Assembly: GCA_903857685.1 (NCBI GenBank)
Contig: CAIOFO010000073.1
Span: forward strand, 1 to 56,437
Source of the DNA: an uncultured Alphaproteobacteria bacterium
GTDB lineage: Bacteria > Pseudomonadota > Alphaproteobacteria > Micropepsales > Micropepsaceae
Direction: 5' to 3'
DNA length: 56,437 nt
In this document: positions 21,056-37,281 of the stretch, piece after piece
How the letters are laid out: the number at the start of each line of letters is the position of its first letter
Numbering within the stretch: position 1 is the stretch's first letter
The notes under the pieces: model-generated
What the model was told of the DNA's origin: nothing
The model's input: only the letters and a program-made list of their open reading frames with translations
The model's database searches: none
Position numbers and translations under genes: made by a program

Positions 21056-21979
21056 ATGCGAGTCATTCTTGCCCAGCCGCGCGGCTTTTGTGCCGGCGTC
21101 GTCCGCGCCATCGATATCGTGGAAAAGGCGCTCGATAAATATGGCGAGCCCGTCTATGTGCGCCACGAGATCGTGCACAACAAGCATGTCGTCCAGACAT
21201 TGAAGAACAAGGGCGCGCGTTTCGTCGAGGAACTGGATGAGGTGCCCGAAGGCGCCGTGACCGTGTTCAGCGCCCATGGCGTGCCCCAATCGGTGGTCAA
21301 GACCGCCCAGGATCGCGGCTTGCCGGTCCTCGACGCCACCTGCCCGCTTGTTTCCAAGGTGCATAACCAGGGCAAGCGCTATGTCAGCCATGGCCGCACC
21401 CTGATCCTGATCGGCCATGCCGGCCATCCCGAAGTGGAAGGCACCATGGGCCAGGTCGGTGCCCCGGTGCATCTGGTGCAATGCGAGGCCGATGTCTCCA
21501 CCCTGCCGATCCCGGTCGGCCAGCCGGTCGCCTATATTACCCAGACCACGCTTTCGATCGACGACACCAAGGGCATCATTGTCGAGCTCAAGAAACGCTT
21601 CCGCGATATCGTCGGCCCCGAGACGAGTGATATCTGCTACGCCACCCAGAACCGCCAGACCTCGGTGCGCGAACTGGCCAAGGTCGCCGATGTGATCCTG
21701 GTTGTGGGGGCGAAGAATTCCTCAAACTCCAATCGCCTGCGCGAGATCGGCATTGAGGAAGGCGTGCCGTCCTATCTGATCAATGACGGCAGCGAGCTCG
21801 ATCCCGAATGGGTGCGCGGCAAGGCGGTTGTGGGGCTGACGGCCGGCGCCTCGGCGCCGGAAAGCCTGGTGCAGCACGTGATTGACGCGCTGGGCGAAAT
21901 CGAACAGGTCAAGGTCGAACAAATGGACGGCAAGAAGGAACATATCGAATTCCGCCTGCCCGCCGAGTTGAGGGTTTAA
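21056..21979 (+). CDS. ispH: 4-hydroxy-3-methylbut-2-enyl diphosphate reductase
   Basis: The 307-aa enzyme starts [19 protein letters not shown], with the first iron-sulfur Cys in FCAGV. Further motifs are [22 protein letters not shown] (second Cys), the third Cys in [10 protein letters not shown], and KNSSNSNRL with TAGASAPE. It makes IPP and DMAPP in the last MEP step. ATG 21056 follows AGGAG; the frame is open upstream to 20951 but lacks similarity. The stop is 2 nt from the hpnH start, so the two are co-transcribed. Confidence 0.96.
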
Positions 21980-21981
21980 AG

Positions 21982-23145
21982 ATGGGACTTCCCATACGCC
22001 AAGCCGCCAAGATCGGCGCCTATGTGATGAAAAAGCATCTGTCGGGCCAGAAGAAGTATCCCCTGGTGCTGATGCTTGAGCCCTTGTTCCGCTGCAATTT
22101 GGCCTGCGCCGGCTGCGGCAAGATCGATTATCCCGATGAAATATTGAACCAGCGCCTGTCCTATGACCAGTGCATGGCCGCGATCGACGAATGCGGCGCG
22201 CCCGCCGTCTCCATCGCCGGCGGCGAGCCGCTGCTTCACCGCGACATGGCCAAGATCGTCAAGGGTTTCATCGAGCGCGACAAGTTCGTGATCCTCTGCA
22301 CCAACGCCCTGCTGCTGTCGAAAAAGATCGACCAGTATGAGCCGCATGAGAATTTCACCTGGTCCATCCATCTGGACGGCGACAAGGCGATGCATGACAA
22401 GTCGGTTTGCCTGGACGGTACGTATGACAAGGCCGTCGCCGCCATCAAGCTGGCCAAGTCGCGCGGCTTTCGCACCCAGATCAACTGCACCCTGTTCGAA
22501 GGCTCGGACCCGGACCGCACCGCCAAATTCTTCGACGAGATGATGGCGATGGGCCTGGACGGCATCACCGTCTCGCCGGGTTATGCCTATGAGCGCGCGC
22601 CCGACCAGCAGCACTTCTTGAACCGCGAGAATACCAAGAAAATGTTCCGCGAGATTTTCGCCCGCGGCCATGGCGGCAAGGATTGGGAATTTACCCAGTC
22701 CAGCCTGTTCCTGGATTTCCTGGCCGGCAACCGAACCTATGAATGCACGCCCTGGTCCATGCCGCTGCTGACCGTGTTCGGCTGGCAGAAGCCCTGCTAC
22801 CTGCTGGGCGAAGGCTATGCCGCGACGTTCGCCGAATTGATGGAAGGCACCGAGTGGCAGAAATACGGGGTCGGCAATTACGAGAAATGCGCCAACTGCA
22901 TGGTCCATTGCGGCTTCGAGGGCAGCGCGGTTCTGGACAGCACCCGCAATCCCTTCCAGATCCTGCCCATCCTGATGCGCGGCGTGAAGACCGACGGCCC
23001 GATGGCCCCCGACATTGACCTGTCGAAACAGCGCCCGGCGGAGTTCACCTTCGCCCGCCATGTCGAGCACAAAATGTCGGAGATCAAGACCGGCCGGTCA
23101 AATACCACAGAGACCGGACCCGCAGAGGTCGCGGCAGCGGAGTAG
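21982..23145 (+). CDS. hpnH: Adenosyl-hopene transferase HpnH (radical SAM)
   Basis: The 387-aa protein has the radical SAM cluster motif CNLACAGC (CxxxCxxC), GGEPLLHRD, and the SPASM-like C-terminal Cys residues (ECTPW, GKPCYLLGEGY-type, YEKCANCMVHCGF). HpnH adds adenosine to hopene (diploptene) to make adenosylhopane, the first side-chain step of C35 hopanoids. It starts 2 nt after ispH. The 3' end overlaps the convergent hpnG by 48 nt, placing the two sequential enzymes' genes tail to tail. Confidence 0.95.
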   Translation: MGLPIRQAAKIGAYVMKKHLSGQKKYPLVLMLEPLFRCNLACAGCGKIDYPDEILNQRLSYDQCMAAIDECGAPAVSIAGGEPLLHRDMAKIVKGFIERDKFVILCTNALLLSKKIDQYEPHENFTWSIHLDGDKAMHDKSVCLDGTYDKAVAAIKLAKSRGFRTQINCTLFEGSDPDRTAKFFDEMMAMGLDGITVSPGYAYERAPDQQHFLNRENTKKMFREIFARGHGGKDWEFTQSSLFLDFLAGNRTYECTPWSMPLLTVFGWQKPCYLLGEGYAATFAELMEGTEWQKYGVGNYEKCANCMVHCGFEGSAVLDSTRNPFQILPILMRGVKTDGPMAPDIDLSKQRPAEFTFARHVEHKMSEIKTGRSNTTETGPAEVAAAE

Positions 23146-23754
23146 CTGCGCGAAGGCCTTGCCGGATGCCCGGCCGGTGCGGATCAGCGCCGGGATCTGC
23201 AGCGGGTTCTTGACCACCGACCACAACACTCTGGTGAGCGCGATGCCGCCATCCGGCCTCATCGCCACCAGGGCTGCCGGCGGCAGCACATGCGATGCAT
23301 CGTCGGAAATGATCCTGAGGCCAGCCAGCTTGAGGCCGCGTGAGGCAGCAAAGCGGGCCGCCACCTGGCTTTCCATATCCACCGCCAGCGCCCCGGTTGC
23401 GTCGTAGAGCGCGGCCTTGGCCAGCGGGTTTTCCAGAATGATGTTGCTGCCGATCAGCGGCCCCTGATGCGCGCCGGGCAATTTCGCCGCCAGAGCCACG
23501 CGCCAGAGATTGTCGCAGCGCCACTTTTCGGCGCCGAAGGTAATCTGGTCGGCAATCACCACATCGCCCACTTTCAGGAGTGGCGACAAGGCCCCGGCCA
23601 AGCCGATGGAGATCACGCCAGTAATGTCGCCATGCAGGGCGTCCAGCTTGCGCGCCAATCCCGCGGCATCGCCGCCGCCCGCCACCGCCACCACGTCCTC
23701 GGTGCCGGCGATTTCGGCTTCCCGCGTCAAACCGGTGACGGCGAGGATGGTCAC
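23098..23754 (-). CDS. hpnG: Adenosylhopane nucleosidase/phosphorylase HpnG
   Basis: From GTG 23754 (overlapping the shc stop as GTGA) the product is 218 aa and belongs to the nucleoside phosphorylase / MTA-SAH nucleosidase superfamily: VISIGLAGALSPLLKVGDVVIADQI, ALAVDMESQVAARFAA with the ribose-binding Met-Glu, and IISDDASHVLPP with the catalytic Asp. HpnG removes adenine from adenosylhopane to give ribosylhopane. The frame is open upstream into shc, but homology starts at the GTG. It is last in the long minus-strand hpn operon. Confidence 0.88.
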   Translation of the reverse strand: MTILAVTGLTREAEIAGTEDVVAVAGGGDAAGLARKLDALHGDITGVISIGLAGALSPLLKVGDVVIADQITFGAEKWRCDNLWRVALAAKLPGAHQGPLIGSNIILENPLAKAALYDATGALAVDMESQVAARFAASRGLKLAGLRIISDDASHVLPPAALVAMRPDGGIALTRVLWSVVKNPLQIPALIRTGRASGKAFAQLLRCRDLCGSGLCGI

Positions 23755-25682
23755 AGCCCGAATTCCGTGCGCCGCGAATTGCCGCTTTTGAGATTGCGGT
23801 AACGCGCCAGCGCCCAGAGCGGGAAGAATTTCGGATAGCCGTGATAATTCAGATAGAAGACGCGCGGGAAGCCGCCGCCGGTGTAGTGCGCCTGTTCCCA
23901 CAACCCATCCGGCTGCTGGTTGGCGAACAGCCAGGCGATGCCCCGCGCCACCGCCGAATGATCCACCTGCCCCGCCGCCATCAGGCCCAGCATCGCCCAG
24001 GCGGTTTGCGAGGCGGTGGAGGGCGCCGGTTCATGGCCTTGGTAGTCCAGCTTGTAGCTGTTGCAGTCCTCGCCCCAGCCGCCGTCCGAATTCTGGATAT
24101 TGATCAGCCAGTCCGCACCTCGCTTCATGGTGTCATGATCCGGCGCAAGCCCCGCGCCGTTCAGCCCCGCCAGCGCCGACCAGGTGCCATAGATGTAATT
24201 CACCCCCCAGCGGCCGAACCAGGAGCCGTCTTTCATCTGTGTACGAATTAAATAGTCCATACCCAATTTGAGCCGCGCGGCATCGCCGCCCAGCTGCGCG
24301 ATCATGCCGACACAGCGGCCCGAGACATCCTCGGTCGGCGGATCGAGCAGCGCGCCGTGATCTGCGAAGGGGATATTGTTGAGGTAAAAATAGCTGTTGT
24401 CGGCGTCGAAGGCGCCCCAGCCGCCATCCCGGCTTTGCAGGCCGTCAATCCATTCGGCGGCGCGGGCGATGGCGGCGTCATAGCCGCTGGCCAGCCCACG
24501 CTTCTGCGCCCGGTCCATCGCCATCACCACCACGGCGGTGTCGTCGGTGTCGGGATAATAATCGTTGCGGTACTGGAAGGCCCAGCCGCCCGGCCGCACA
24601 TCGGGTTTTTCTTCGGCCCAGTCGCCCTTCACATCCAGGATCTGCAGCGGCTTCAGCCATTCCAGCGCCCGCGTCACGGCGGCTTCGGCCTTGGCATCGC
24701 CGGTTTCCAGCAGGGCATGCGCGACAAGGCCCGTATCCCAGACCGGCGAGACGCAGGGCTGGCAATAGGCTTCTTCGTCCTTGATCACCAGAAGATTTTC
24801 AACAGATTTGCGGGCGATGGCGCGGTCGGGATGATCCGGCGGAAAGCCCAGCACGTCATACATCATCACGCTGTTGGCCATGGCGGGATAGATGGCGCCC
24901 AGCCCGTCCTCGCCGTTCAGCCGCTCCGTCGTCCATGCGCGGCATTTCTCGATGGCGCGGGCGCGCAAGCTTTTCGGCCAAAACGGTTCGAACCGCTTCA
25001 GGCCCCAGTCCAGCGCGGCAAAGAACGCCGACCAGCCGGCGCTCTGGTGCGGCGCGCGCGGACTGGCGGCGCCCACGCCCGGTACGAACAGTTCGGCGAT
25101 CTGTACGCCGCGCGGATTGCGCGCCAGCGGCCGCTTCGCCGCCAGCACCAGCAGCGGCACGATCACGGTGCGGGCCCAATAGCTCATCTTGGACAGATGG
25201 ATGGGAATCCAGCGCGGCAGCAGGATCAGTTCCACGGGCACGGTGGGGACATTCGACCAGCTGGTCTGGCCATAGAGCGCCAGCAGAATGCGGGTAAAGA
25301 CGTTGGCCTTGATGGCGCCGCCGCGCTGGTGCAGAGCTTCGCGCGCCCGCGCCATGTGCGGCGCATGGATGTCGTCGCCGATCATCTTGAGGGCGAAGTA
25401 GGCCTTCACCGTGGCGGAAATATCGAAACCGCCTTCATGGTAAAGCGGCCAGCCGCCATGGGCGCCCTGGATGCGGCGCAGATAGACGCCGATCTTGCGT
25501 TCCAGCTCCAGGTTGGGCGTTTCCGCCAGGTAATGCACCAGCAGGACGTATTCCGCCGGGATGGTGGCGTCGGCTTCCAGCTCATAGACCCAATGGCCGT
25601 CGGGGCGCTGCTGCGCCAGCAGAGCCTCGGTGGCGGAACGAATGCTGCCGTCCAGGCTGGGAAATGGGGCCAACTGGTTCAT
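23751..25682 (-). CDS. shc: Squalene-hopene cyclase
   Basis: This 643-aa class II triterpene cyclase has the catalytic DxDD acid in YPDTDDTAVV and several QW-type repeats (DGGWGAFDADNSYFYLNNIPF, DGSWFGRWGVNYIYGTWSAL, DGGWGEDCNSY, DGLWEQAHYTGGGFPRVFYLNYHGYP). It is a membrane-associated enzyme converting squalene to hopene/hopanol. The ATG at 25682 (MNQLAPFPSLDG) is the only start consistent with the family, although the frame runs to 26033. It lies 8 nt after hpnE and overlaps hpnG. Confidence 0.97.
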   Translation of the reverse strand: MNQLAPFPSLDGSIRSATEALLAQQRPDGHWVYELEADATIPAEYVLLVHYLAETPNLELERKIGVYLRRIQGAHGGWPLYHEGGFDISATVKAYFALKMIGDDIHAPHMARAREALHQRGGAIKANVFTRILLALYGQTSWSNVPTVPVELILLPRWIPIHLSKMSYWARTVIVPLLVLAAKRPLARNPRGVQIAELFVPGVGAASPRAPHQSAGWSAFFAALDWGLKRFEPFWPKSLRARAIEKCRAWTTERLNGEDGLGAIYPAMANSVMMYDVLGFPPDHPDRAIARKSVENLLVIKDEEAYCQPCVSPVWDTGLVAHALLETGDAKAEAAVTRALEWLKPLQILDVKGDWAEEKPDVRPGGWAFQYRNDYYPDTDDTAVVVMAMDRAQKRGLASGYDAAIARAAEWIDGLQSRDGGWGAFDADNSYFYLNNIPFADHGALLDPPTEDVSGRCVGMIAQLGGDAARLKLGMDYLIRTQMKDGSWFGRWGVNYIYGTWSALAGLNGAGLAPDHDTMKRGADWLINIQNSDGGWGEDCNSYKLDYQGHEPAPSTASQTAWAMLGLMAAGQVDHSAVARGIAWLFANQQPDGLWEQAHYTGGGFPRVFYLNYHGYPKFFPLWALARYRNLKSGNSRRTEFGL

Positions 25683-25690
25683 GATGGCGA

Positions 25691-26950
25691 CTATAAGGAT
25701 AGTTGCCGCAGCGCCAAAGCCGCCGCCGTTTCGCCCGACTGGACCGCGCCTTCTATAGTGGCGGGCAGGCCGGTATCGGTCCAGTCGCCGGCCAGGAAGA
25801 AATTGCGCCAGCCGGTCGCCGCCGCAGGCCGCATCGCATTCTGCGCCGGGGTGGCGGCGAAGGTGGCGCGCTTTTCCTTGACGATCTGCCACTTGGGCAA
25901 TGGCGCGGAAATGTCCAGGGCGGCGCAGACTTCCGCCCACAATGTCTGCGCCAGGTCGGCGCGATCCCGGTCCACGATCGCGTCCGCAGCCGAAACGGTC
26001 ACGGAAATGCGGTCCGGGAAGGTGAATATCCATTCCGCCGTGCCGCCGATCATACCCTGCATGCCAGAAGCGCCGGCCGGCGCCGGATATTTGAAATGGG
26101 CATTGATGATGCTGCGGAATTCAGTCGGCGCCGACAGGCGCGGCACCAGGTCCCTGGCCACCCAGGGCGGCACCGCCAGGATCACCATGTCCTGGCCGGA
26201 CAGCGGCAGGGTGGCATCGGGAAATTCCAAGGCCGCTGCGGCGCGCCCGCCAAAGGTGATGGCGCGCAGCCTTTCGTTGAACCGTATCTGGGCACCCCGC
26301 GCCTTGAGAAATTCCAGCGCGGGATCGATAAAGGCCGCCGCCAGCGTGGGATGGGCTATTCGGGTGCGATAGGCGTTGCCGCCACGCAGGAAAGTCCTGC
26401 GCACCAGGGCACCGGCCAGCACGGCGGATGCCTCTTCCGGCCGGGTGTTCAGCGCCCCCAGGAAGAAAGGCTGCAGCAGCCTTTCCCACAACACGCCCTT
26501 GCAGGACAGCACATCGCATATGCGCTGGCCCGGACGCGCCAGCAGCAATTTGGTCAGTTCCAGATATTCGGCCGGTACCGTCCCAGGCACCCGGCGCCTG
26601 GCGTCGAACACCCAGGTGGGTACGCGGCCGGGATTGGGCCTGATAGTCCAGCGCTCGCCGGTCGCGAGGGCAAAAAAATCCTTCTCGGGCAATGCCGAGC
26701 CTTGCATCGCGGCGCTGGCGCCGATGCGACGCAGATATCCAAAGGCCGCCTGGTTTCCGGTCAGGATGAAATGATTGCCATTGTCTATCACGCCGTCGAA
26801 ATTGGGATCGAAATAGGAGCGGCAACGCCCGCCCGCCTGCCCCGCCGCTTCGAACAACGTCACGGCTACGCCACGCCCTGCCAGGCAGGTGGCGGCAGCA
26901 AGGCCCGCCAGCCCCGCCCCGATCACATGGGCATGCGCAGCCGTCTTCAT
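25691..26950 (-). CDS. hpnE: Hydroxysqualene dehydroxylase HpnE
   Basis: The 419-aa flavoprotein starts with a Rossmann FAD motif (HVIGAGLAGLAAATCLAGRGVAVTLFEA) followed by AGGRCRSYF, and ends with the carotenoid/squalene-oxidoreductase-type FLAGDWTDTGLPATIEGAVQSG. HpnE reduces hydroxysqualene to squalene in the three-step HpnCDE route. ATG 26950 overlaps the hpnD stop as ATGA. Confidence 0.93.
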   Translation of the reverse strand: MKTAAHAHVIGAGLAGLAAATCLAGRGVAVTLFEAAGQAGGRCRSYFDPNFDGVIDNGNHFILTGNQAAFGYLRRIGASAAMQGSALPEKDFFALATGERWTIRPNPGRVPTWVFDARRRVPGTVPAEYLELTKLLLARPGQRICDVLSCKGVLWERLLQPFFLGALNTRPEEASAVLAGALVRRTFLRGGNAYRTRIAHPTLAAAFIDPALEFLKARGAQIRFNERLRAITFGGRAAAALEFPDATLPLSGQDMVILAVPPWVARDLVPRLSAPTEFRSIINAHFKYPAPAGASGMQGMIGGTAEWIFTFPDRISVTVSAADAIVDRDRADLAQTLWAEVCAALDISAPLPKWQIVKEKRATFAATPAQNAMRPAAATGWRNFFLAGDWTDTGLPATIEGAVQSGETAAALALRQLSL

Positions 26951-27807
26951 AGAAATTTCGAGCGCAGCACCAGCGACAGGAGCTTGCCCTTGCCAAGCGA
27001 GACGCGGCGGCGCGGCGGTGCGAAACCGGCGGCTTCGGTGGCGCTGAGAATTTCCGAATAGACCGCGCCCATCAGCCAGGGTGTGGCGATACGGCCTTTG
27101 GGTTTGACCGTCAGCACGGCTTGCGCCTTGTCGTAATGCTCATGCGCCAGGGCCGACACCTGGCGGCAGACCGTGTCCACCCGGGGATCGGATACCACCA
27201 TCCTGGGATCCAGGGATTTGAATCCCGCCGCGAAAAGATACTCGCGCGGCAGATAGAGGCGGCCGATATCGGCATCTTCATCGATATCGCGCAATATGTT
27301 GGTGAGCTGCAGGGCGCGGCCAAGATGATGGGCCAACTGGAAGCCGGGGCCTTCCTCCATCCCGAACACCTTGATCGAAAGACGGCCGACAGCGCTGGCC
27401 ACCCGCTCGCAATAAAGATCGAGCGTGATGAGATCGGGGGCCACGATGTCCTCGGCGACATCCATGTCCATGCCGTCCAGAATGGTCAGGAAATCTTCCT
27501 TGCGCAGGCCATACTGCATCACCGCCGGGGCCAGGAACGCGGCCTGCGCGCAAGGCGCCCCGGCAAAAAGCGCCTCCAGGTCGGCACGCCAGGCGTCGAG
27601 CCGCTCATGCCGTTCCGGCCGCGTCCCGACGCCGTCATCGGCGATGTCGTCGACCCGGCGGCAGAACGCATAGATCGCGAACATGGCGTCGCGCTCCTGC
27701 CTGGCCATCAGCCGCATCGCGGTATAGAAGGAGCTGCCGCTGGCCTTTTTCTTGACGGCCTTGGACTGAGGCGCATTCATCTGGGGCGCGTTCATGCTGT
27801 CGGGCAT
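26947..27807 (-). CDS. hpnD: Presqualene diphosphate synthase HpnD
   Basis: This 286-aa squalene/phytoene synthase-family protein has both Asp-rich motifs, FCRRVDDIADD and LTNILRDIDEDADIGRLYLP. It joins two farnesyl diphosphates to presqualene diphosphate. The N-terminus is unusually rich in Lys and Met (MPDSMNAPQMNAPQSKAVKKK); ATG 27795 is an alternative start. It follows hpnC by 7 nt and overlaps hpnE. Confidence 0.93.
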   Translation of the reverse strand: MPDSMNAPQMNAPQSKAVKKKASGSSFYTAMRLMARQERDAMFAIYAFCRRVDDIADDGVGTRPERHERLDAWRADLEALFAGAPCAQAAFLAPAVMQYGLRKEDFLTILDGMDMDVAEDIVAPDLITLDLYCERVASAVGRLSIKVFGMEEGPGFQLAHHLGRALQLTNILRDIDEDADIGRLYLPREYLFAAGFKSLDPRMVVSDPRVDTVCRQVSALAHEHYDKAQAVLTVKPKGRIATPWLMGAVYSEILSATEAAGFAPPRRRVSLGKGKLLSLVLRSKFL

Positions 27808-27814: not shown

Positions 27815-28657
27815 TCATTTTATCAGGCGCCGGAGGGCGAAGCCGGGCAGCATCGTCAGGAACAGCGCCGCGACGGCGGGTTTGGAGTGATGCACGGTCT
27901 GGGATAGCGGATCGCGGCGGGTCAGCTTGGTGTTCAAATCTTCGGCGAGGGTTTGAATGAGATCGACTTCCAAGGCAAGCCTCGTACCCCGCAATTGCCG
28001 CCCAAAATTCCTGGATTTTGCCAGCAATCCCGCGTTTTTCCGGGCCAGGGCGGCGATCACGCTTTTCAACGCCGGGCTGGCGGCGGGAGCGGCCAAATCT
28101 CCCGCTTCCGCCCCTGCCGCAGCAAGAGCGTCCTCGGGGAGATAGACCCGGTTCAGCTGGCGGTAATCCTTGGCGCAATCCTGAAGGTGATTGATGATTT
28201 GCAGGGCGGCGCAGAGTGCGTCATTGGCGTGCCATGAGTCGCGGCTTTCGCCGTGCACGTCGAGGACAAAACGGCCCACCGGCATGGCCGAATAGCGGCA
28301 ATAGTCCAGCAGATCCTCCCAGTCGCGGTAACGCAGCTTGGTCACATCGCGGCGAAAGGCCTCCAGAAGGTCGAGGGCGTGGGCGGGCCCCAGATTCTTC
28401 TCCGCCAGCGCGGTGCGCAGGTTTACGCCTTCGGGCGAGGCATCGCTTTCCCCCACCAGAGTGGCGCGCATTTCTTCCAGCAGGCGCAATTTTTCAGCCG
28501 GCGATGCTGTGGCGTGATCCGCAATATCGTCGGCGAAGCGCACGAAACCGTAGAAGGCCAGTATCGCCGGACGGTGCCGGGGGGCGATCAGGAAAGACGC
28601 GACCGGGAAATTCTCGTCCTTGTGGCCCTTGCCTGACTGGAGCACCTCGCCGCTCAT
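27815..28657 (-). CDS. hpnC: Hydroxysqualene synthase HpnC
   Basis: The 280-aa squalene/phytoene synthase homologue has HKDENFPVASFLIAPRHRPAILAFYGFVRFADDIADHA and the second motif IINHLQDCAKDYRQLNRVYLP. HpnC converts presqualene diphosphate to hydroxysqualene. ATG 28657 overlaps the hpnB stop as ATGA; the frame is open to 28855 but that part lies inside hpnB. It is followed by hpnD after 7 nt. Confidence 0.93.
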   Translation of the reverse strand: MSGEVLQSGKGHKDENFPVASFLIAPRHRPAILAFYGFVRFADDIADHATASPAEKLRLLEEMRATLVGESDASPEGVNLRTALAEKNLGPAHALDLLEAFRRDVTKLRYRDWEDLLDYCRYSAMPVGRFVLDVHGESRDSWHANDALCAALQIINHLQDCAKDYRQLNRVYLPEDALAAAGAEAGDLAAPAASPALKSVIAALARKNAGLLAKSRNFGRQLRGTRLALEVDLIQTLAEDLNTKLTRRDPLSQTVHHSKPAVAALFLTMLPGFALRRLIK

Positions 28658-29826
28658 GCCTTTTCGCTCCGGATATTTTCCATGGCCTGCGCTCGGCCCT
28701 TCCACATGCCGCCCCGCCCGAGCCAGTGCTGCAGCGCGGAGTCGAACGTGAAGCCGGCGTAAAAAATGCCGATCAGGGGCAAGGCGATGCCCCACAAAGG
28801 CGACAGGCGATAGAAACGCAGGATCGGCTGGAACATCAGCGCCATGATGATCCATGCCGTCCAGCCCGCCAATTGCGGAATCTCCCAGGCGAACAGGGCA
28901 GTCATGACTGGCGCGACATACACGACGCCCAGACCCAGCAGGGTGCCGATCAACAGGAGCGGCGAGAAATCCAGCTGGGCATAGGCCGAACGCGACACCA
29001 TGTGGCGAATTTCGGAAAGCCGCTCATAGGGCCGAAGCGACACCGCCCGGTCTGTCAGGCCCAGCCAGATGGGGCCTTGCGCCTTCATGGCGCGGGCCAG
29101 GGCGCAATCGTCAATGATGTTGTGCCGAATGGCTTCAATGCCGCCCGCCGCGTCCAAGGCGCTCTTGCGCGCCAGCATGCAGCCGCCTGCCGCCGCCGCG
29201 ATGGGCCGGGCAGGATCGTTGACGGCGCCAAACGGAAACAGCATTTCGAAAAAAAACACGAAGGCGGGAACCAGGAAATGCTCGGCGGCCGTGCGGCAGG
29301 ACAACCGCGCCATCAGCGAGACCAGGGCCTTGTCGCCGCTTTGCGCCCGCGCCACCAGCCGGGAAAGGTTGTCCGGGCTATGGGCGATATCGGCATCGGT
29401 GAACCAGAGAAATTCCGGCGAAATCCCGGCGGCATGATCGCAGCCCTGCTTCATCGCCCAGAGCTTGCCGGTCCAGCCCGGGGGCCGCGGAGCGCCGCCG
29501 ATTACGGTCAGCCTGTCCGAAGCCAAGGCGCGGGCGAGATCTCCGGTGCCGTCATCGGACTGGTCGTCCACCAGGATGACGCGCAAGTCCCCCCCATATT
29601 CCTGGGCCAGCAGACTGGCGATGCTGTGCTGAATGACGTCGGCCTCATTGCGCGCCGGCACCACCGCAACCACCGATGGCCAGCGGGCGGGTGCGGGCGG
29701 TTCGCCCCGCGTGTCGCGCTCATTCAATTGCCAGAACCAGTCACGGCCCAGCAGCAGGTAAAGCCAGATTGCCAGCGGCAAGAAGCCAAACACGATGCCC
29801 GCAATCGTTACCCAATCGTCTGTCAC
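28654..29826 (-). CDS. hpnB: Hopanoid-associated glycosyltransferase HpnB
   Basis: The 390-aa GT2 protein has an N-terminal membrane segment (WVTIAGIVFGFLPLAIWLYLL), a GT-A nucleotide-sugar domain (VVAVVPARNEADVI, VILVDDQSDDGTGDLA, WFTDADIAH with the metal Asp residues), and C-terminal membrane helices. It is the HpnB family found in hopanoid clusters; the exact sugar transfer is not settled. GTG 29826 overlaps the hpnA stop as GTGA. Confidence 0.9.
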   Translation of the reverse strand: MTDDWVTIAGIVFGFLPLAIWLYLLLGRDWFWQLNERDTRGEPPAPARWPSVVAVVPARNEADVIQHSIASLLAQEYGGDLRVILVDDQSDDGTGDLARALASDRLTVIGGAPRPPGWTGKLWAMKQGCDHAAGISPEFLWFTDADIAHSPDNLSRLVARAQSGDKALVSLMARLSCRTAAEHFLVPAFVFFFEMLFPFGAVNDPARPIAAAAGGCMLARKSALDAAGGIEAIRHNIIDDCALARAMKAQGPIWLGLTDRAVSLRPYERLSEIRHMVSRSAYAQLDFSPLLLIGTLLGLGVVYVAPVMTALFAWEIPQLAGWTAWIIMALMFQPILRFYRLSPLWGIALPLIGIFYAGFTFDSALQHWLGRGGMWKGRAQAMENIRSEKA

Positions 29827-30815
29827 GACAAGTACCCGTTGGTGCCGAACCAGGTCAGCGCATCCTTCAGGCCCTCCCGGTAAGGCCGCGCCGCAAAGCC
29901 CAATTCGGCTTTCGCCTTGGCGGAGGAAAAAAACATCCAGTAGCGCGACATGCGCAGCGCATCGGCGGTGAGAAAGGGCTGCCGGCCCGTTAGCCGCGCC
30001 ATCAGTTCGGCGCCATAAGCGAGCGGGAACAGGGGCCAGCGCGGCAATTTTACGCGTGGGGGGCGGCGGCCGGTCAGCCCAGCGATGTCGCCCAGCATGG
30101 TTTCTAGCGAAACATCCTCGCCGCCCAGAATATAATTCTGCCCGATACGGCCTTTTTCCAGCGCCAGGAAATGGCCTTCCGCCACATCCTCGACATGCAC
30201 CAGGTTCAGGCCGGTATCGACAAAGGCGGGCATGCGGCCGGTGGCGGCCTCGACAATGATGCGGCCGGTCGGGGTTGGCTTGATGTCGCGCGGCCCGATG
30301 GGCGTGGAAGGCGACACGATCACGGCGGGAAGATTCTTTTCCACGATCAGGCGTTCGACTTCGCGTTCGGCCACCAGCTTGCTGCGCTTATAGGCGCCGA
30401 TCACGCTTTGCGGCGTGTGGCGCGAGGCCTCATCCACCGCCTCGCCGGCGCCGGGCTTCAGGGCGGCCACCGACGACGTATAGACGACCCGCTCCACGCC
30501 GGCGCGGAGCGCAGCCTGCATGGTGGCGCGGGCGCCATCCAGATTGTTGCGTTCAATCTCGCCCGGATCCCGGGCCCAAAGCCGGTAATCCGCCGCGACA
30601 TGAAACAGGTAACGCGCGCCGGACATGGCGGCGGCCATGGAAGCGGCGTCGCGCATGTCGCCGCTGACCGGTTCGACATCCAGGCCCCTGATATTGGCGC
30701 GGCTGGCGGTGGGCCGCATCAGCACTCTGGTTTTAAAGCCCCGCGCCACGGCCGCGCGCGCCACGGCCGCGCCGACAAAACCGGAAGCTCCCGTCACCAG
30801 CACGATATCACTCAT
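29823..30815 (-). CDS. hpnA: Hopanoid-associated NAD-dependent sugar epimerase/dehydratase HpnA
   Basis: The 330-aa extended SDR starts MSDIVLVTGASGFVGAAVARAA (GxxGxxG NAD motif), with VYTSSVAALKPG for the catalytic Ser region and a later VIGAYKRSKLVAE (YxxxK). It matches HpnA of hopanoid clusters, thought to modify a nucleotide sugar or side chain. ATG 30815 is preferred to a GTG at 30830. It overlaps hpnL by 8 nt. Confidence 0.9.
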   Translation of the reverse strand: MSDIVLVTGASGFVGAAVARAAVARGFKTRVLMRPTASRANIRGLDVEPVSGDMRDAASMAAAMSGARYLFHVAADYRLWARDPGEIERNNLDGARATMQAALRAGVERVVYTSSVAALKPGAGEAVDEASRHTPQSVIGAYKRSKLVAEREVERLIVEKNLPAVIVSPSTPIGPRDIKPTPTGRIIVEAATGRMPAFVDTGLNLVHVEDVAEGHFLALEKGRIGQNYILGGEDVSLETMLGDIAGLTGRRPPRVKLPRWPLFPLAYGAELMARLTGRQPFLTADALRMSRYWMFFSSAKAKAELGFAARPYREGLKDALTWFGTNGYLS

Positions 30816-31800
30816 GGTTGAGACTCGCACCGGAGAATGCTCTGCGACTTTCGACGCTCTGCCAGTAAATCAGCGCCGGAACGCCCAGCACGATCTCCCG
30901 CGCGCGCTTGAGGAGCGACACAGCAAGCCCCAGCTCGGCCGGGAGCCCGAACAGCGGCGCCAGCATGGCATAGCCGGCCTCCTGCACCCCGATGGCGGCG
31001 GGCACGAAAGCCGCGATGCTGCGGATGGTGCAGAGCAGCGCTTCCAGCGCGAGGGCGTTGACCAGATTGATCTGGCCGCCGACCAGGCGGAACGCAATGA
31101 ACGTGCCGCCGCCGGCGGTGAACCATGCCAGCAGGTGCAGCGCCGCCGAGGCAGCCAGCCGCGCGTGAGAATCGTAAATATCTTCAATCGCGGCCCGGAA
31201 TGAAACGCCCTGCCTGACCTGCGGGAAAAATCGCCCGGCCATTTTTTCGGCAAATCCCGCGCCGCGCCTGAGCAAAATGACCAGCAATGTAATACCTGGA
31301 ACCGCCAGCAGCAGAACGACGATCATCGCCTCGGCGAGCGGGCCGCCATTTTGCAGATGGCGAAAATGCGTGAAACCGATTCCGAGGCCGAAAGCCAGGA
31401 ACACCACCTGCGCCATGGCTTCGGTGGTGGCGTCGGCGGCAATCGATGCCGCGGCATAGGCGGCATCCATGCCCTTGAGAATCATCAGCCGAGCCGCTGC
31501 CACCATGCCGCCCACCGGCGAGAAAGGTGAAATCTCGGCAATGGAATCGCGCACCAGGCGGGCAATGTAGAGCTGGGCGACCGGGCGGCGCTGCAAGGGC
31601 GGCAGCAGAAAGTACAAGGCGAAACCCAGCGGAACAAACATCAGCAGCGCGTAAAGGCACAGCAGCGCCAATCCGCCGAAGCTGGCGCGAGCGATGCTGG
31701 CGAATACCGCGCCAAAGCCAATGGCCCAGATGAGATAGACGGCGGCGACCAGACCCGCCAGCAGCGCGACGGTCACGCCGATCTTGGGGGTCCATTTCAT
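30808..31800 (-). CDS. hpnL: HpnL, flippase-like integral membrane protein
   Basis: The 330-aa protein has about eight membrane segments (LLAGLVAAVYLIWAIGFGAVF, LALLCLYALLMFVPLGFALYFLL, MIVVLLLAVPGITLLVIL, and others) and the LPG-synthase/UPF0104 pattern ARLVRDSIAEISPFSPVGGMVAAARLM with FVPAAIGVQEAGYAML. This is the TIGR03476-type HpnL of hopanoid loci, an inner-membrane protein of unclear function. It follows the first diiron gene by 6 nt. Confidence 0.88.
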   Translation of the reverse strand: MKWTPKIGVTVALLAGLVAAVYLIWAIGFGAVFASIARASFGGLALLCLYALLMFVPLGFALYFLLPPLQRRPVAQLYIARLVRDSIAEISPFSPVGGMVAAARLMILKGMDAAYAAASIAADATTEAMAQVVFLAFGLGIGFTHFRHLQNGGPLAEAMIVVLLLAVPGITLLVILLRRGAGFAEKMAGRFFPQVRQGVSFRAAIEDIYDSHARLAASAALHLLAWFTAGGGTFIAFRLVGGQINLVNALALEALLCTIRSIAAFVPAAIGVQEAGYAMLAPLFGLPAELGLAVSLLKRAREIVLGVPALIYWQSVESRRAFSGASLNHE

Positions 31801-31806: not shown

Positions 31807-32655
31807 TCAGGCCGGCAGCGGCTTGGCGCGGAAGCTCCACAGGCGCATCGCTCCCAGGGCGGTTTCGGCCAGCTGGGGCAGGAAGCTCGGGCGCAGCAAT
31901 TCGGCATCGAATGCGCCCATGCGGCGGCGGTTTTCGGAATAGCAATCCTCGAGAAACCGCCGGAAGGTGAAGCCGTCCAGGAAGACGCTGGCCTGGGTGG
32001 CCGTGAATTCCTTGCCGTCATTCAAATCCTTGCCGCGCTTAGCGGTGCCGATCATCCGGCCCAGCGCACGCATGTAGAAGCGGAAACTGGTGAAGGGCAG
32101 CAGCAGGCGCGCGACAATTCCCTTGCGCGCCTGGGTATAGGCCATCCAGTTGACGAAAAAAACGATATGCCTTGTTTCCTCATACATCAGGGTTTCGAAG
32201 ATGTTGAACATCTCCTGGGGCAGAAACTCCGACTGCAAGGCGATCTTGAAAACGCCAAATCCGAGAAATGAATCCATGCATTCGCCGAAACCGAAATCCT
32301 TGAAGCGGGTTTCGACATTGTCGGAAACGTCCTCCAGCGGGCGCTCCGCCGCATCGATGCCGTATTTCTCAATCATCACCCGGATCAGCTGGGCGTGACG
32401 GGCTTCCTCGAAGCCCTGCAGCTTGACGGCCTCCTTCAGCACCGGGTCGGTGATGGTTTCGGTAAAGGCGGCAACGATCGCCCCCGCCCGCCGCTCGGTG
32501 TAGAAAACCTCTTCCCAGAAAGGCACGGATTTCAGGCGCTGCAGCGCCGCCTCGTCCAGCTCCGGCCAGGGCAGCGCATTGGGATCAAACTCGGTATAGG
32601 TCCGCATGAAATGGCCGCAGAATGTGTCGCGATGTTCCTGGGAGCCGATTTTCAT
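31807..32655 (-). CDS. Ferritin-like diiron protein A in the hopanoid operon
   Basis: The 282-aa protein carries a full ferritin/RNR-type diiron set: E54 (YTERRAG), E84xxH87 (QGFEEARHAQLI), E125 (GFGECMDSF) and E160xxH163 (MYEETRHIVFFVNW). The helix-rich spacing fits a four-helix bundle oxidase/oxygenase/desaturase. It is paralogous to the next gene upstream (same motif order and similar flanks) and overlaps it by 4 nt. It lies between hpnK and hpnL in one transcriptional unit with the hopanoid genes. I know of no named hopanoid enzyme of this type. A role in hopanoid oxidation or desaturation is inferred from position and chemistry. Confidence 0.75.
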   Translation of the reverse strand: MKIGSQEHRDTFCGHFMRTYTEFDPNALPWPELDEAALQRLKSVPFWEEVFYTERRAGAIVAAFTETITDPVLKEAVKLQGFEEARHAQLIRVMIEKYGIDAAERPLEDVSDNVETRFKDFGFGECMDSFLGFGVFKIALQSEFLPQEMFNIFETLMYEETRHIVFFVNWMAYTQARKGIVARLLLPFTSFRFYMRALGRMIGTAKRGKDLNDGKEFTATQASVFLDGFTFRRFLEDCYSENRRRMGAFDAELLRPSFLPQLAETALGAMRLWSFRAKPLPA

Positions 32656-33560
32656 GCCGCGACTTTCTTTTTCGGTCCGATGAATTTCAATGCCAGCCGG
32701 GCCAGGAACGGCACGAAACGGGGCCGCTTGAGGCGATTGTCGTACGGCGCCAGCCGGCGGTCATTCTCGGCAAGACAAAGGGCGATCAGTTCGCCCACGT
32801 CAACATCCGAGCCCAGCGCTTCGGCGCCATTGACGGTGAAATTATTGTCCTGCTGGCCGTTGGAAACGTCCGAGGCGATGCCCATGCGCTCATAGACCAG
32901 GAACAGCCAGACCGCCAGAACCTTGAGCTCGAACCAGGGGCGGCGCCAGAATGGCATGTTGCGGCGATGCCAGGCGACCCAGTTCACGAAAAACAGAATG
33001 TGGCGCGCCTCCTCGTTCACGACGGGATCGAAGGTCTCGACCAGTTCCGGCGGGAAATAGCCGGTGTCCTTCGCCGCCTTGAACAGGCCGAAGGCGAAGA
33101 AGGAATCGATGCATTCGCTGTAGCCGGTGACCAGGAAGGCCCATTCGGGATTTTTCGGTTTTTCATAGACCGGCTCGGGCGCCAGCTTGATGCCATAGGC
33201 TTCGACCAGATTGGCCAGGACATGGCGATGGCGCCGTTCTTCAAAGCCGTTCAGTTCGATCGCCTTGCGCAGCAGGGCATCGGGCACGCCTTCGGCATAG
33301 GTGCAGACATTCAGTCCGGCGCGGTTCTCGGTCTGTACCGCGATATCCCAGATCGGCAGCGCCGTGATGCGCTTTTCCGCCTCCTCGCCAAGCTTGGGCC
33401 AGTCCAACACCGCCGGCTTGTAGGGATCGTGGGTGTCGAGCAGGGTCTTGCAGAACAGCCGCTTGTGTTCGTCGCCGCCCCATTTGATCGGGCCATCGCC
33501 CGGCATTGTGCCGGTGTCGCGGGTCAGATCGGGCGGTATGGCAAAAGCCGGACTACTCAT
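32652..33560 (-). CDS. Ferritin-like diiron protein B (paralogue of A)
   Basis: The 302-aa protein repeats the diiron pattern: E78 (TENRAG), E108xxH111 (NGFEERRHRHVL), E149 (GYSECIDSF) and E184xxH187 (NEEARHILFFVNWVA). ATG 33560 is chosen over a preceding TTG. It has an extra N-terminal segment and shorter spacing differences from protein A, so the two probably form different subunits or act on different substrates. The stop and the start of A overlap (ATGA). hpnK lies 48 nt upstream. Function is unknown. Confidence 0.75.
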   Translation of the reverse strand: MSSPAFAIPPDLTRDTGTMPGDGPIKWGGDEHKRLFCKTLLDTHDPYKPAVLDWPKLGEEAEKRITALPIWDIAVQTENRAGLNVCTYAEGVPDALLRKAIELNGFEERRHRHVLANLVEAYGIKLAPEPVYEKPKNPEWAFLVTGYSECIDSFFAFGLFKAAKDTGYFPPELVETFDPVVNEEARHILFFVNWVAWHRRNMPFWRRPWFELKVLAVWLFLVYERMGIASDVSNGQQDNNFTVNGAEALGSDVDVGELIALCLAENDRRLAPYDNRLKRPRFVPFLARLALKFIGPKKKVAA

Positions 33561-33608: not shown

Positions 33609-34451
33609 CTAGTGTACCGGAAAGTCGCCAAAGCCGCCAAGACGAATATCGCCGGCCGCGATCAACGCCGCCATGCGGGGGTCCGTCAAAGCCGCCATTT
33701 CGGCGCGATATTCATATCCCGGGGCGGAGCCGGGATATTCGCCGGTGGCCGGGTGCATATATATCTCCGAAAGCCCATCTGGCAGGTGGGTTAACAGCCC
33801 GGCAAGGCGCGCGGCATTCATAGCGCCCGACCAGGCAAGACCGAACACCTGGTCCGGCGCGGCAATGCCGGCCCTTTTTAACCGGCCGCGCAGGGCGCGC
33901 GCGAAAGGCGCTGTCAGCGCCACGCGTGCGCAAGTCCCGTGCGGTTCCACTTGGCGCAGGATGTGCTGCGGCTCCAGTGGCACCCGCGCGCCGCGCACGC
34001 CATGGCGCCTGCCGATGCTGACGATCAGGCCCGCGATGGTGGGGTGCAGATGGAAATGCTTGTGGGCGTTGACATGATCGAGGCGCAGGCCGGTCGCGTC
34101 AAAGGCTGCGAACTGGGCTTCGATCTCGGCCTCCAGCTGGCGGCGCACCTTGGGCAGGAAAAACATCGCCGCCCCTGCCCGTGCCATGTCGGTGCGGAAA
34201 TGCCCGCGATCGTCCACCAGGTCGGGCACATCGGCGGCGGGAAGAACCGGCCGTCCCTCCACCAGCACCAGATGCAGGCCGATGCGCAGCGACGGCAATG
34301 CCTTTGCCCTTCGCACCGCATCGGCGCTCGCGGCGCCTGACACCATCAGGCTGGCGGCGGTGAGAATGCCGTTTTCGTGGCAGCGCTGAACGGCGTCGTT
34401 GACCTCGGGTGACGCCCCGTAGTCATCGGCGGTAATGATGAGCCGCTTCAT
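33609..34451 (-). CDS. hpnK: Hopanoid biosynthesis protein HpnK (ChbG/YdjC-type deacetylase)
   Basis: The 280-aa protein starts MKRLIITADDYGASPEVNDAV, with the metal-binding Asp pair, then GLHLVLVEGRPV, LDHVNAHKHFHLHP (His ligands) and a C-terminal EIYMHPATGEYPGS. This is the carbohydrate deacetylase YdjC fold. HpnK deacetylates N-acetylglucosaminyl bacteriohopanetetrol made by HpnI. ATG 34451 fixes the start at the motif; upstream extension lacks similarity. A 153-nt gap with hairpins separates it from hpnJ. Confidence 0.92.
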   Translation of the reverse strand: MKRLIITADDYGASPEVNDAVQRCHENGILTAASLMVSGAASADAVRRAKALPSLRIGLHLVLVEGRPVLPAADVPDLVDDRGHFRTDMARAGAAMFFLPKVRRQLEAEIEAQFAAFDATGLRLDHVNAHKHFHLHPTIAGLIVSIGRRHGVRGARVPLEPQHILRQVEPHGTCARVALTAPFARALRGRLKRAGIAAPDQVFGLAWSGAMNAARLAGLLTHLPDGLSEIYMHPATGEYPGSAPGYEYRAEMAALTDPRMAALIAAGDIRLGGFGDFPVH

Positions 34452-34500
34452 GGTTGATGCGGCGCCCTGCCGCTCGCCCAAGCTCGCGGCGCTCGGCACT

Positions 34501-34604: not shown

Positions 34605-36032
34605 TCAGGAGACGATCATGTCTTCGCGGTGGCGCAGGAACTGGAAGAATTCCACGCCTTCGCGCAAGCGCCGCACCAGCATATCGCGCGAGGTGAGCAT
34701 CTCGCCCACGATCTCGGCGATCTTGGAGGGGCGGAAATAGAATTTCTTGTAGAACTCCTCCACCGACTCGAAGATCTCGGTATGCCCCAGATGCGGGTAG
34801 TTGAGCGGCGCGATCTGGGTGCCGTCGTCGGTCAACAGGTCGACATCGCTGGCGAACCAGCCATTTTCCTTGGCCTGCTTGTAGAGATAGGTGCCGGGAT
34901 AGGGCGCCGCCAGCGAAACCTGCAGGGTGCGCGGATTGACTTCCTTGGCGAAGGCCAGGGTTTCCTGGATGGTTTCGCGGGTCTCTCCCGGCAGGCCCAG
35001 AATGAAGGTGCCGTGCACCACAATGCCCAGATCATGGCAATCGCGGGCAAAGCGCTTGGCGACTTCGACCAACAGGCCCTTCTTGATATTGTGCAGAATC
35101 TTCTGGTTGCCGGATTCATAGCCGACCAGCAGCAGGCGAAGGCCGCCCTTCTTCATCGCTTCCAGCGTCTTGCGCGGAACATTGGCCTTGGCGTTGCACG
35201 ACCACACCACGCCCAGCTTGCCCAGTTCGGCGGCCAGCTTTTCGACGCGATCGTGATTGTCGGTTAGCGTGTCGTCGTCGAAGAAGATCTCCTTCACTTG
35301 CGGGAAATTCTCTTTCACATACTTCACTTCCTCGACCACTTTCTCGATCGACTTGAAGCGGTAATTGTGCCCGCCGATGGTCTGGGGCCACAGGCAAAAG
35401 GTGCAGCGCGACTTGCAGCCGCGGCCGGTGTACCAGGACATGTAAGGGTGCAGCAGGTAGCCGCCGAAATACTTTTCCACCTTGAGCTGCTTGTAGATCG
35501 GCAGCACCGAGGGCAGCTTGTCCATGTCCATCAGGATTTCGCGCTCGGGATTGGTGACGATCTCGCCCGAGGCGTTGCGCCAGGTCAGGCCCTTGATGCC
35601 GGACCAGTCGTCGCCCCTGGCCAGTTCCTGGATGGTGAATTCATATTCATTGCGGCAGACGAAATCGAGCGCCGGACAGGCGGCCATGCTCTGGTCGGGT
35701 TCAACCGCGACCTTGGCGCCGATGAAGCCGATCTTGGCGGTGGGATTGATTGCCCGGATCATGGTGGCGGTCTTGCAGTCCGACTTGAAGCTGGGCGTCG
35801 AGGTGTGAATGACGATCAGTTCATGCGCCTTCACATCGGCTTCGATGTCCTTGAAGGATGTGTCGTGCGGCGGGGCATCAATGATCTTGGAACCCGGCAC
35901 CATCACGGCGGCCTGGGCCAGCCAGGTGGGGAACCAGAAGCTCTTCACTTCACGCTTCATCTGGTAGCGCGCGCCGGCGCCGCCGTCATAACCGTCGAAG
36001 GACGGCGCCTGGAGGAAAAGTGACTTCATCAT
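34605..36032 (-). CDS. hpnJ: Hopanoid radical SAM protein HpnJ
   Basis: The 475-aa protein has an N-terminal B12-binding-like domain (LFLQAPSFDGYDGGAGARYQ, VIHTSTPSFKSD) and a radical SAM domain with CKSRCTFC, then GYESGNQKILHNIKKGL and GLPGETRETIQETL. HpnJ is the ring-contracting enzyme that makes the cyclitol ether of bacteriohopanetetrol from the glucosamine form. ATG 36032 overlaps the hpnI stop. It follows hpnI, its substrate supplier. Confidence 0.92.
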   Translation of the reverse strand: MMKSLFLQAPSFDGYDGGAGARYQMKREVKSFWFPTWLAQAAVMVPGSKIIDAPPHDTSFKDIEADVKAHELIVIHTSTPSFKSDCKTATMIRAINPTAKIGFIGAKVAVEPDQSMAACPALDFVCRNEYEFTIQELARGDDWSGIKGLTWRNASGEIVTNPEREILMDMDKLPSVLPIYKQLKVEKYFGGYLLHPYMSWYTGRGCKSRCTFCLWPQTIGGHNYRFKSIEKVVEEVKYVKENFPQVKEIFFDDDTLTDNHDRVEKLAAELGKLGVVWSCNAKANVPRKTLEAMKKGGLRLLLVGYESGNQKILHNIKKGLLVEVAKRFARDCHDLGIVVHGTFILGLPGETRETIQETLAFAKEVNPRTLQVSLAAPYPGTYLYKQAKENGWFASDVDLLTDDGTQIAPLNYPHLGHTEIFESVEEFYKKFYFRPSKIAEIVGEMLTSRDMLVRRLREGVEFFQFLRHREDMIVS

Positions 36033-37192
36033 TGCAGAGCCTCAACCGATTCCGAAGAAAGAACGCCGCTACGTTCGACCGACAGGCGGGTTCCCCGCCA
36101 ATGCACCGTCTCACCTGATAGCGACGCGACAAATACACCAAAACTCAAGAGATCCCGCAGGGGCAACAACCAGGCGGGTCCGGCATTGGTGTCGAAAATA
36201 CGGTCGATGCGGTACTTCAGAATTAATCGCGCGCCAAGCGCAATTCCCAGGATCGCCAGGCTGGCGGGACGGAAATCCAGCAAAACCGCTGCCATCAGCG
36301 CCAATGGAACCGCAAATGTAATGATGCTGCCCGCATGTCCGACCGGGTTGATGCGGCGGATGGTGCGGTTCCAGCGCAGTTCATGATTGACAAGTTCCGC
36401 CGCCGAGGTTTCGGTGGCGCTGTGGCTGACGCCCAGAGCAGGGATGGTCAGCTCAAGCCCCAGCTGGCGCACCGCCCGGCCCATTTCATAATCGTCCGCC
36501 AGATAATCGGCGAAGGCGGCGAAGCCTCCGATTTTCTCCAGCACGGCGCGGGTGAAGGCGATGGTGGAGCCCATGCAGGGTTCTGCCAGCCCCAGCGAAA
36601 CACCGGTCACGACATTGGGCAGGAAATCATAGGAGGTGCCCATCGCCGCCAGGGTGGGCCACAGGCCGCGGTTCCCGGCTTCTCCCTTATAGAGGCAGGT
36701 GACAAGGCCGACACCCGGCCGCGCCAGCGCGCCCGTCACCTCGCTGAGCCAATTGGGCGGCACACGGATATCGCTGTCGCTCAAAACCAATATGCCATGC
36801 TTGGCGGCGGGCATCATGTTGATGAGGTTGGAGACCTTGGCATTGGGTCCATACATCGCCGGTTCGGCGACAATGCAGGTATCAAAGCCGGGATATTTTT
36901 CCTGCAGTCCCCGCACCACCTCGATGGCGGGATCTGCTTGGTCATGCACGCCGAATACGATCTGGATCGGGGCGGCAAAATCCTGGGCGAAGAAGCTTTC
37001 CAGATTTTCCTTCAGGCCCGGTTCGCCCAGATAAAGCGGCTTGAGAATGGTGACAGGGGCATCGGAACGGTGCTGCGAAGACGGCGCGCGCATGAATCGG
37101 CCGGCCGCCAGCACGGCCATGACGGCATAGCCCGCGCCGCACAAAGCAAGCACGACCAAAAACCAGCCAAATTCCATCGAAATCAAGGCCAT
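36029..37192 (-). CDS. hpnI: Hopanoid glycosyltransferase HpnI
   Basis: The 387-aa GT2 enzyme starts at ATG 37192, supported by GGAG five nt upstream (an alternative ATG is at 37177). It has an N-terminal membrane helix, APVTILKPLYLGEPGLKENL, ILVLSDSDIRVPPNWL (metal DxD), DYEMGRAVR and the QxxRW-like LRWNRTIRR, then C-terminal membrane segments. HpnI adds N-acetylglucosamine to bacteriohopanetetrol. It is the first gene of the minus-strand hpn operon, so its upstream DNA should carry the main promoter. Confidence 0.92.
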   Translation of the reverse strand: MALISMEFGWFLVVLALCGAGYAVMAVLAAGRFMRAPSSQHRSDAPVTILKPLYLGEPGLKENLESFFAQDFAAPIQIVFGVHDQADPAIEVVRGLQEKYPGFDTCIVAEPAMYGPNAKVSNLINMMPAAKHGILVLSDSDIRVPPNWLSEVTGALARPGVGLVTCLYKGEAGNRGLWPTLAAMGTSYDFLPNVVTGVSLGLAEPCMGSTIAFTRAVLEKIGGFAAFADYLADDYEMGRAVRQLGLELTIPALGVSHSATETSAAELVNHELRWNRTIRRINPVGHAGSIITFAVPLALMAAVLLDFRPASLAILGIALGARLILKYRIDRIFDTNAGPAWLLPLRDLLSFGVFVASLSGETVHWRGTRLSVERSGVLSSESVEALQ

Positions 37193-37281
37193 CACCACTC
37201 CAGCGCCCCCACCGGAGACACTTATATACATAATGGCGGCGAGCGCAGGGAAGATAGGTAAGGGCGGAACTTGCCACAATA

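Follow-up and report, generated by a model that had tools for sequence, protein, structure and literature searches.

The R2-like ligand-binding oxidases (R2lox) contain two ExxH pairs among their ligands, a long-chain lipid bound at the metal site and a valine-tyrosine ether crosslink beside the Mn/Fe site. In hopanoid biosynthesis, the methylases HpnP and HpnR carry out an optional tailoring, as is proposed below for a further pair of proteins, but are radical S-adenosylmethionine (SAM) enzymes and not diiron enzymes. That pair, named FerA and FerB in this analysis, was found to be encoded in tandem between hpnK and hpnL in a contig of 56,437 nucleotides from an uncultured Alphaproteobacteria bacterium (CAIOFO010000073.1; the whole stretch is called the window), and FerA was found to contain two ExxH pairs as in R2lox. 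Oxidation of hopanoids has also been proposed for proteins of the 'sterol desaturase family', including HpnX (PMC12583986, PMC6460317). The protein of PMC6460317 lies in the membrane and contains histidine motifs, whereas FerA and FerB contain carboxylate-rich ExxH sites, and those of PMC12583986 lie outside the hpn cluster, unlike FerA and FerB of the window. With high confidence, FerA and FerB belong to a real family of putative diiron proteins, uncharacterised and tied to hopanoid biosynthesis; the novelty is that of an unnamed family within a known pathway.

The two genes of the pair are as follows.

32652..33560, minus strand: FerA, open reading frame (ORF) of 302 amino acids, R2/R2lox-like putative diiron protein with conserved ligands and an AlphaFold2 model
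31807..32655, minus strand: FerB, ORF of 282 amino acids, ancient paralogue of FerA

The stretch 31807-33560 was found to run exactly from the stop of FerB to the ATG of FerA on the minus strand, with an overlap of 4 nt (ATGA) between the two genes, a gap of 48 nt between hpnK and FerA and a gap of 6 nt between FerB and hpnL. FerA and FerB were found to share 33% identity over 267 residues without a gap, and both contained the E...ExxH...E...ExxH set, numbered in FerA as E78, E108-H111, E149 and E184-H187. The ORFs, the identity and the alignment thus confirm the original prediction of tandem paralogues with a full ligand set, coupled by ATGA and flanked by hpnK and hpnL. Across 60 aligned sequences of the family (52 FerA-type and eight FerB-type), E78, E108, E149, E184 and H187 were invariant (60/60) and H111 was conserved in 59/60, the exception being a FerA homologue (L145:4110-4952) in which the first His of the metal ligands is replaced by Gln (H111Q). 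The motif in a loose form was found in 0.9% and 0.6% of 20,000 shuffles of the two proteins, below 1% for either.

FerA was found to accompany HpnH, the adenosyl-hopene transferase, across classes. In the class of the window (385 genomes), FerA was found in 27 genomes, five of which belong to the window's own genus, and HpnH was over its cut-off in 106; HpnH was present in 27/27 genomes with FerA and in 79/358 without it (Fisher p 5e-17; the Fisher p values given here ignore kinship). The family of Dyella (97 genomes) contained FerA in 12 and HpnH in 17 genomes, with HpnH in 12/12 genomes with FerA and 5/85 without it (p 9e-12). The family of Endobacter (Acetobacteraceae, 60 genomes) contained FerA in 31 and HpnH in 52, with HpnH in 30/31 and 22/29 genomes, respectively (p 0.02); the sole genome of this family with FerA and without HpnH (G430) contained a cyclase over its cut-off. 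In the order of a metagenome-assembled genome (MAG) labelled Sphingomonadales (G392; 89 genomes), FerA was found in two genomes and HpnH in 16, both FerA-containing genomes being among the latter. Twenty of the 80 loci described below were checked and 19 were found to lie in genomes with HpnH. The HpnH threshold in the Endobacter-family, Sphingomonadales and Dyella-family samples and for the 20 loci was E up to 1e-60, and all these matches were also over the cut-off except that of G407, a genome of the Endobacter-family sample without FerA. No HpnH match over the cut-off was found in the 14 control genomes. The genome samples overlap, at least in G026 and G442 and in G334 and G458, which share the same coordinates.

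Across these samples FerA was confined to genomes with hopanoid genes, apart from G430 and a MAG labelled Myxococcales (L147 / G398). The latter is the exception among the 20 loci, and it contained a cyclase-like match below the cut-off; lateral transfer, a binning error or another substrate are the explanations considered for its FerA. A scatter of homologues through genomes without hopanoid genes, named in the original prediction as the outcome that would speak against it, was therefore not found; the proposed role in hopanoid modification was largely borne out in its tie to hopanoids, and the reaction stays unproven.

In plasmid records, a FerA homologue was found in 13, by a search with a homologue from another genome (L053) and not with the window protein, and HpnH in 31, with both in 11 (Burkholderia 4, Cupriavidus 4 and Caballeronia 3). 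The records with HpnH and no FerA on that replicon were from Mycetohabitans (9), Azospirillum (7), Streptomyces (2), Roseomonas (1) and Methylobacterium (1). HpnJ was found in 13/27 FerA-containing genomes of the class sample and in 11/53 tested genomes with HpnH and without FerA (p 0.019), a comparison that covers 53 of the 79 such genomes and leaves the other 26 outside. An obligate tie of FerA to cyclitol ether synthesis was rejected, as HpnJ was not seen in 14/27 FerA-containing genomes.

The neighbourhood of FerA was compared at the best 80 of 481 confirmed loci, which are not a census, with a flank of up to 8 kb per locus; some contigs are short, so that a missing neighbour may lie past the contig end, and the counts were made without cyclase (SHC) labels. 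At least one hpn gene was found in the flank at 37/80 loci, and an hpn gene other than hpnL alone at 28/80. The neighbours were hpnL (33), hpnJ (25), hpnK (23), hpnA (22), hpnI (21) and hpnB (17). Of the two genes for which the original prediction had suggested a neighbourhood survey, hpnL was seen at 33/80 and hpnK at 23/80 loci; 43/80 loci, including those of Burkholderia, Paraburkholderia and named Acetobacteraceae, contained no hpn gene in the flank. The genomes of Burkholderia and Acetobacteraceae in which FerA lies away from hpn genes still contain hpnH, so FerA accompanies hpnH even without linkage.

FerA adjoining hpn genes was found in alphaproteobacterial MAGs, Nevskia MAGs and Dyella, gamma- and betaproteobacteria included, in the arrangements hpnK-FerA-FerB-hpnL, hpnK-FerA-hpnA, hpnL-FerA (Nevskia, Dyella) and hpnJ-FerA-hpnL (gammaproteobacterial MAGs). 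Plasmid p3 of Caballeronia zhejiangensis (L150) contained hpnI, an hpnL-type gene, FerA and hpnJ in this order; FerA is unannotated there and is matched in two pieces, which may point to a frameshift in this copy. In Cupriavidus metallidurans CH34, FerA was found 6 nt before hpnB; next to these lie hpnA, encoded on the opposite strand, and then ispH and hpnH (L149; megaplasmid NC_007974.2, 749838-768626, reversed). The gene table has no entries at that stretch of the megaplasmid. A redox partner was sought at this locus only, and none was found among the seven genes scanned. FerA was also present in Acidiphilium, Acidisphaera and B. cenocepacia (L083). A small Acetobacteraceae genome (G432) contained FerA twice, with equal scores and at a distance of 13 kb (G432:C1:1003757 and 1017263).

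In a tree of 131 rows, FerA and FerB were separated across one branch with an SH-aLRT value of 100 (quick search). FerB-type genes were found only in genomes with FerA, in 8/27 of these in the class sample, 12/31 in the Endobacter family and 2/12 in the Dyella family, FerB status in the latter two being judged by 32-37% identity to FerA without a separate FerB search. FerA and FerB were found as one continuous ORF at five MAG loci (L071, L072, L074, L075 and L078), and a further fusion was found in an Acetobacteraceae genome (G334:C1, L037; same coordinates as G458). The ATGA coupling and the natural fusions suggest that FerA and FerB act in succession or as a complex.

In the AlphaFold2 model of FerA (mean pLDDT 85.9, pTM 0.87), four long helices (71-89, 95-121, 138-166 and 171-201) were found to carry the ligand stretches, the arrangement of the carboxylate-bridged diiron proteins of the ferritin-like superfamily, and the prospect of a predicted fold without a diiron site was not borne out in this model. 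The model of a fused A-B protein was poor (pLDDT 65, pTM 0.46) and was not used. In a Foldseek search of the FerA model against the PDB, R2-like ligand-binding oxidases were found first (6f6f and 4hr0; probability 1.00, E 6e-3, TM about 0.50-0.55), with no match at E 0.001. By VIA-align, R2lox 6qrz was matched with Z 14.6 (rmsd 3.8, 213 aligned), about the level (14) typical of helical models without a clear relative, followed by R2 and methane monooxygenase chains with Z 13.2-14.1. FerA is confidently predicted to be helical; its match to R2 and R2lox is moderate for a helical protein, and the fold is called R2/R2lox-like and not a member. Like R2lox and ribonucleotide reductase (RNR) R2, its best PDB matches, FerA is predicted to be all-helical, whereas the identity was 4-17% among the matches listed, no Pfam or NCBIfam model of either matched, and FerA and FerB are hopanoid-linked.

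FerA and FerB were found below every Pfam and NCBIfam cut-off. For AurF (PF11583), the similarity to AurF-type diiron oxygenases was weak, with 12.7 and 15.4 bits against a gathering score of 29.6, and 5/60 members matched at E up to 0.01. For Ferritin_2 (PF13668), FerB scored 19.6 against 24.7 bits and FerA had no match (7/60 members at E up to 0.01), and for Rubrerythrin (PF02915), FerB scored 14.8 against 22.8 bits and FerA had no match (6/60 members at E up to 0.01). Membership in AurF, Rubrerythrin, Ferritin_2 and Metal_hydrol was dropped, the scores being under the Pfam cut-offs. The small-subunit family of RNR R2 was not found among the Pfam and NCBIfam matches of FerA and FerB at E up to 1, nor was a membrane fatty acid hydroxylase or sterol desaturase among the Pfam matches at E up to 1, and a PHROGs search returned nothing useful. 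The best match of the family profile among sequences of solved structures was a MiaE-like tRNA hydroxylase (5ux1), partial and not significant at E 0.015. Among the papers listed by the literature searches, none pointed to the family, and the term 'ferritin-like' in one hopanoid paper belonged to a reference on another protein.

FerA and FerB are proposed, with a probability of roughly 0.5, to be dedicated R2/R2lox-type oxidases that tailor hopanoids, most likely as side-chain hydroxylases. The genes, the conserved ligands, the predicted fold, the co-occurrence with hpnH, the neighbours, the fusions and the presence of FerB only with FerA in the searched samples are established directly. The proteins would be diiron (or Mn/Fe) oxidases acting on hopanoids after HpnH, with the use of O2 to hydroxylate the side chain; they may be soluble or in contact with the membrane, and may work in turn or as a complex. 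FerA would add the first extra hydroxyl, perhaps at C-31, leading to the bacteriohopanepentol series, and FerB the next, perhaps at C-30, leading to the hexol series. The presence of FerB only with FerA would fit a hexol formed after the pentol, and the lipid that R2lox, the nearest fold, binds at its metal site is counted for an oxidase of hopanoids. It is suggested tentatively, at rather less than even odds, that the missing C-31 and C-30 hydroxylases, acting in succession, are FerA and FerB, an R2lox-like lipid oxidase pair, sometimes fused, to which Alpha-, Beta- and some Gammaproteobacteria would owe their bacteriohopanepentol and -hexol.

Published hopanoid profiles were set against FerA at the level of groups. 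Rhodopila and Acidocella are taken here to be near relatives of the FerA-carrying Acidiphilium and Acidisphaera, and Frateuria aurantia to be a relative of Dyella. In a 2025 survey of Alphaproteobacteria with 54 named genomes, pentols and hexols are said to have no known genes, a 32-oxo intermediate is proposed for pentol formation and the pentols are described as mostly cyclitol ethers (PMC12583986). In its Table 3, 9/10 Acetobacteraceae strains contained 6-50% pentol plus hexol, with 0 in Muricoccus, which, together with FerA in 31/60 genomes of this family, is counted for hydroxylation. Elsewhere in the survey, pentol with 0-1% unsaturation is given for Enhydrobacter, Nitrospirillum, Sphingomonas mali and Rhodopila, with Enhydrobacter aerosaccus and Nitrospirillum amazonense as strong pentol makers, whereas Afipia contained 43% unsaturation and no pentol, and the tested relatives of Methylorubrum extorquens contained no pentol. 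A likely pentol cyclitol ether in B. cenocepacia (PMC8560942; strains other than L083), with FerA in the L083 strain, and penta-functionalised hopanoids in Frateuria aurantia (PMC4339782), with FerA in the Dyella family, are counted likewise.

Several observations weigh against side-chain hydroxylation. The structural matches are moderate, and the published profiles were paired with FerA by group and not by individual named strain. In the sample of presumed Sphingomonadales, only 2/16 genomes with HpnH contained FerA, though 6/8 hopanoid-making Sphingomonadales strains contained pentols (PMC12583986), which counts against one universal pentol enzyme. The 14 loci of this sample with HpnH and without FerA (L174-L187) were found to contain no hpnI, hpnJ or hpnK near hpnH, so these genomes may be unlike the surveyed strains; the G+C content of these loci ranged widely (0.49-0.71) and the order label is uncertain. 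FerA was not dependent on HpnJ (13/27), though pentols are mostly cyclitol ethers. The authors of the survey inspected the surroundings of the hpn clusters in their strains for pentol genes and named no candidate (PMC12583986), so that FerA in these strains would be unlinked, absent or passed over. Penta- and hexa-functionalised hopanoids have also been described in type I methanotrophs (PMC5100885), in three Acidobacteria strains (PMC5462960) and in Alicyclobacillus (cited in PMC8537080), groups in which FerA was not sought by name. A pentol cyclitol ether was also present in an isolate of Rhodopila whose anaerobic growth was studied (PMC8590665), which may be awkward for an O2 enzyme. The unsaturated hopanoids of acetic acid bacteria and B. 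cenocepacia fit desaturation too.

The main rival explanation, considered unlikely, is that FerA and FerB are ring desaturases of hopanoids (delta-6 and delta-11) with a mechanism like that of stearoyl-ACP desaturase. Two paralogues would suit two desaturation sites, and the genes for ring desaturation are given as unknown (PMC12583986). Unsaturated hopanoids made up 49-82% in seven acetic acid bacteria (PMC12583986), whose family contained FerA in 31/60 genomes, and were also present in B. cenocepacia (PMC8560942), in which FerA was found; the 0-1% unsaturation of Sphingomonadales (PMC12583986) would agree with the small number of FerA genes in the presumed Sphingomonadales sample. Rhodopila and Acidocella, however, were found to contain 0% and 3% unsaturation, yet 19-21% pentol (PMC12583986), and the published candidates for desaturation are proteins of the sterol desaturase family (PMC6460317, PMC12583986). 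Among the fold matches listed for FerA were R2lox, R2 and methane monooxygenase chains, which also argues against a desaturase.

An oxidation of another kind is likewise improbable: FerA and FerB could form the 32-oxo group before hydration, carry out a head-group-linked change or take part in an aerobic step connected with hpnA, hpnB or hpnL, genes without an established role according to PMC12583986. The frequency of hpnL, hpnJ, hpnK, hpnA, hpnI and hpnB beside FerA at the best 80 of 481 loci, the greater frequency of HpnJ in FerA-containing genomes and the proposed 32-oxo intermediate are consistent with it. Against it, no other trait of hopanoids was noticed to go with FerA in the parts of the literature covered, in which no systematic search was made. 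General ferritin-like, stress or iron proteins placed in the operon by chance would draw on a fold that is common and serves many roles, but this is very improbable and was rejected on the co-occurrence counts with hpnH, which hold also for unlinked genes, and on the repeated hpn neighbours.

Hopanoids are used as biomarkers. If FerA and FerB are the C-31/C-30 hydroxylases, they would give penta- and hexa-functionalised hopanoids a first marker at the level of genes, probably one that depends on O2. A family that has no Pfam or NCBIfam name and tracks hpnH across classes, within and outside hpn clusters, offers a gene open to direct deletion and assay.

The window was found to contain a full hopanoid cluster around the pair, in agreement with the complete operon claimed earlier. 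The NCBIfam cut-offs were passed by HpnI, HpnJ, HpnK, HpnL, HpnA, HpnB, HpnD, HpnE, HpnG, HpnH, HpnM and HpnN, and the cyclase was over its cut-off in the genome search. The other genes of the cluster are as follows.

36029..37279, minus strand: hpnI, BHT glucosamine glycosyltransferase (TIGR03472, 439 bits against a cut-off of 310)
34605..36032, minus strand: hpnJ, radical SAM protein (TIGR03471, 748 against 578)
33609..34499, minus strand: hpnK (TIGR03473, 366 against 233)
30808..31800, minus strand: hpnL, putative membrane protein (TIGR03476, 233 against 196)
29823..30830, minus strand: hpnA (TIGR03466, 466 against 368)
28654..29826, minus strand: hpnB (TIGR03469, 525 against 379)
27815..28855, minus strand: hpnC-like ORF, squalene synthesis (named by its position between hpnB and hpnD)
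26947..27807, minus strand: hpnD (TIGR03465, 303 against 279)
25691..26950, minus strand: hpnE (TIGR03467, 372 against 283)
23787..25652, minus strand: shc, squalene-hopene cyclase, matched part (TIGR01507, 741 against 431)
23101..23901, minus strand: hpnG, stretch scanned (TIGR03468, 187.9 against 187.1, a narrow pass)
21982..23145, plus strand: hpnH, adenosyl-hopene transferase (TIGR03470, 526 against 225)
20951..21979, plus strand: ispH (NF002188, 478 against 420)
19769..20740, minus strand: FPP synthase (NF045485, 303 against 275)
17952..19772, minus strand: dxs (TIGR00204, 746 against 466)
17205..17903, minus strand: hpnM (TIGR03481, 172 against 160)
14602..17208, plus strand: hpnN, hopanoid transporter (NF052374, 1118 against 1100)

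The spacing between hpnA and hpnB was -4 nt. The hpnC-like ORF as called overlaps hpnB, so the true start of hpnC is probably downstream. The hpnG ORF as called (23098-23901) was found to overlap the cyclase ORF (23751-26033) by 151 nt; as the match to the HpnG profile sets in only at residue 51, hpnG too probably has its true start downstream. A gene for an MlaA-like lipoprotein (13919-14542; 110 bits, below the cut-off of 375) was found 59 nt before hpnN and is perhaps part of lipid transport.

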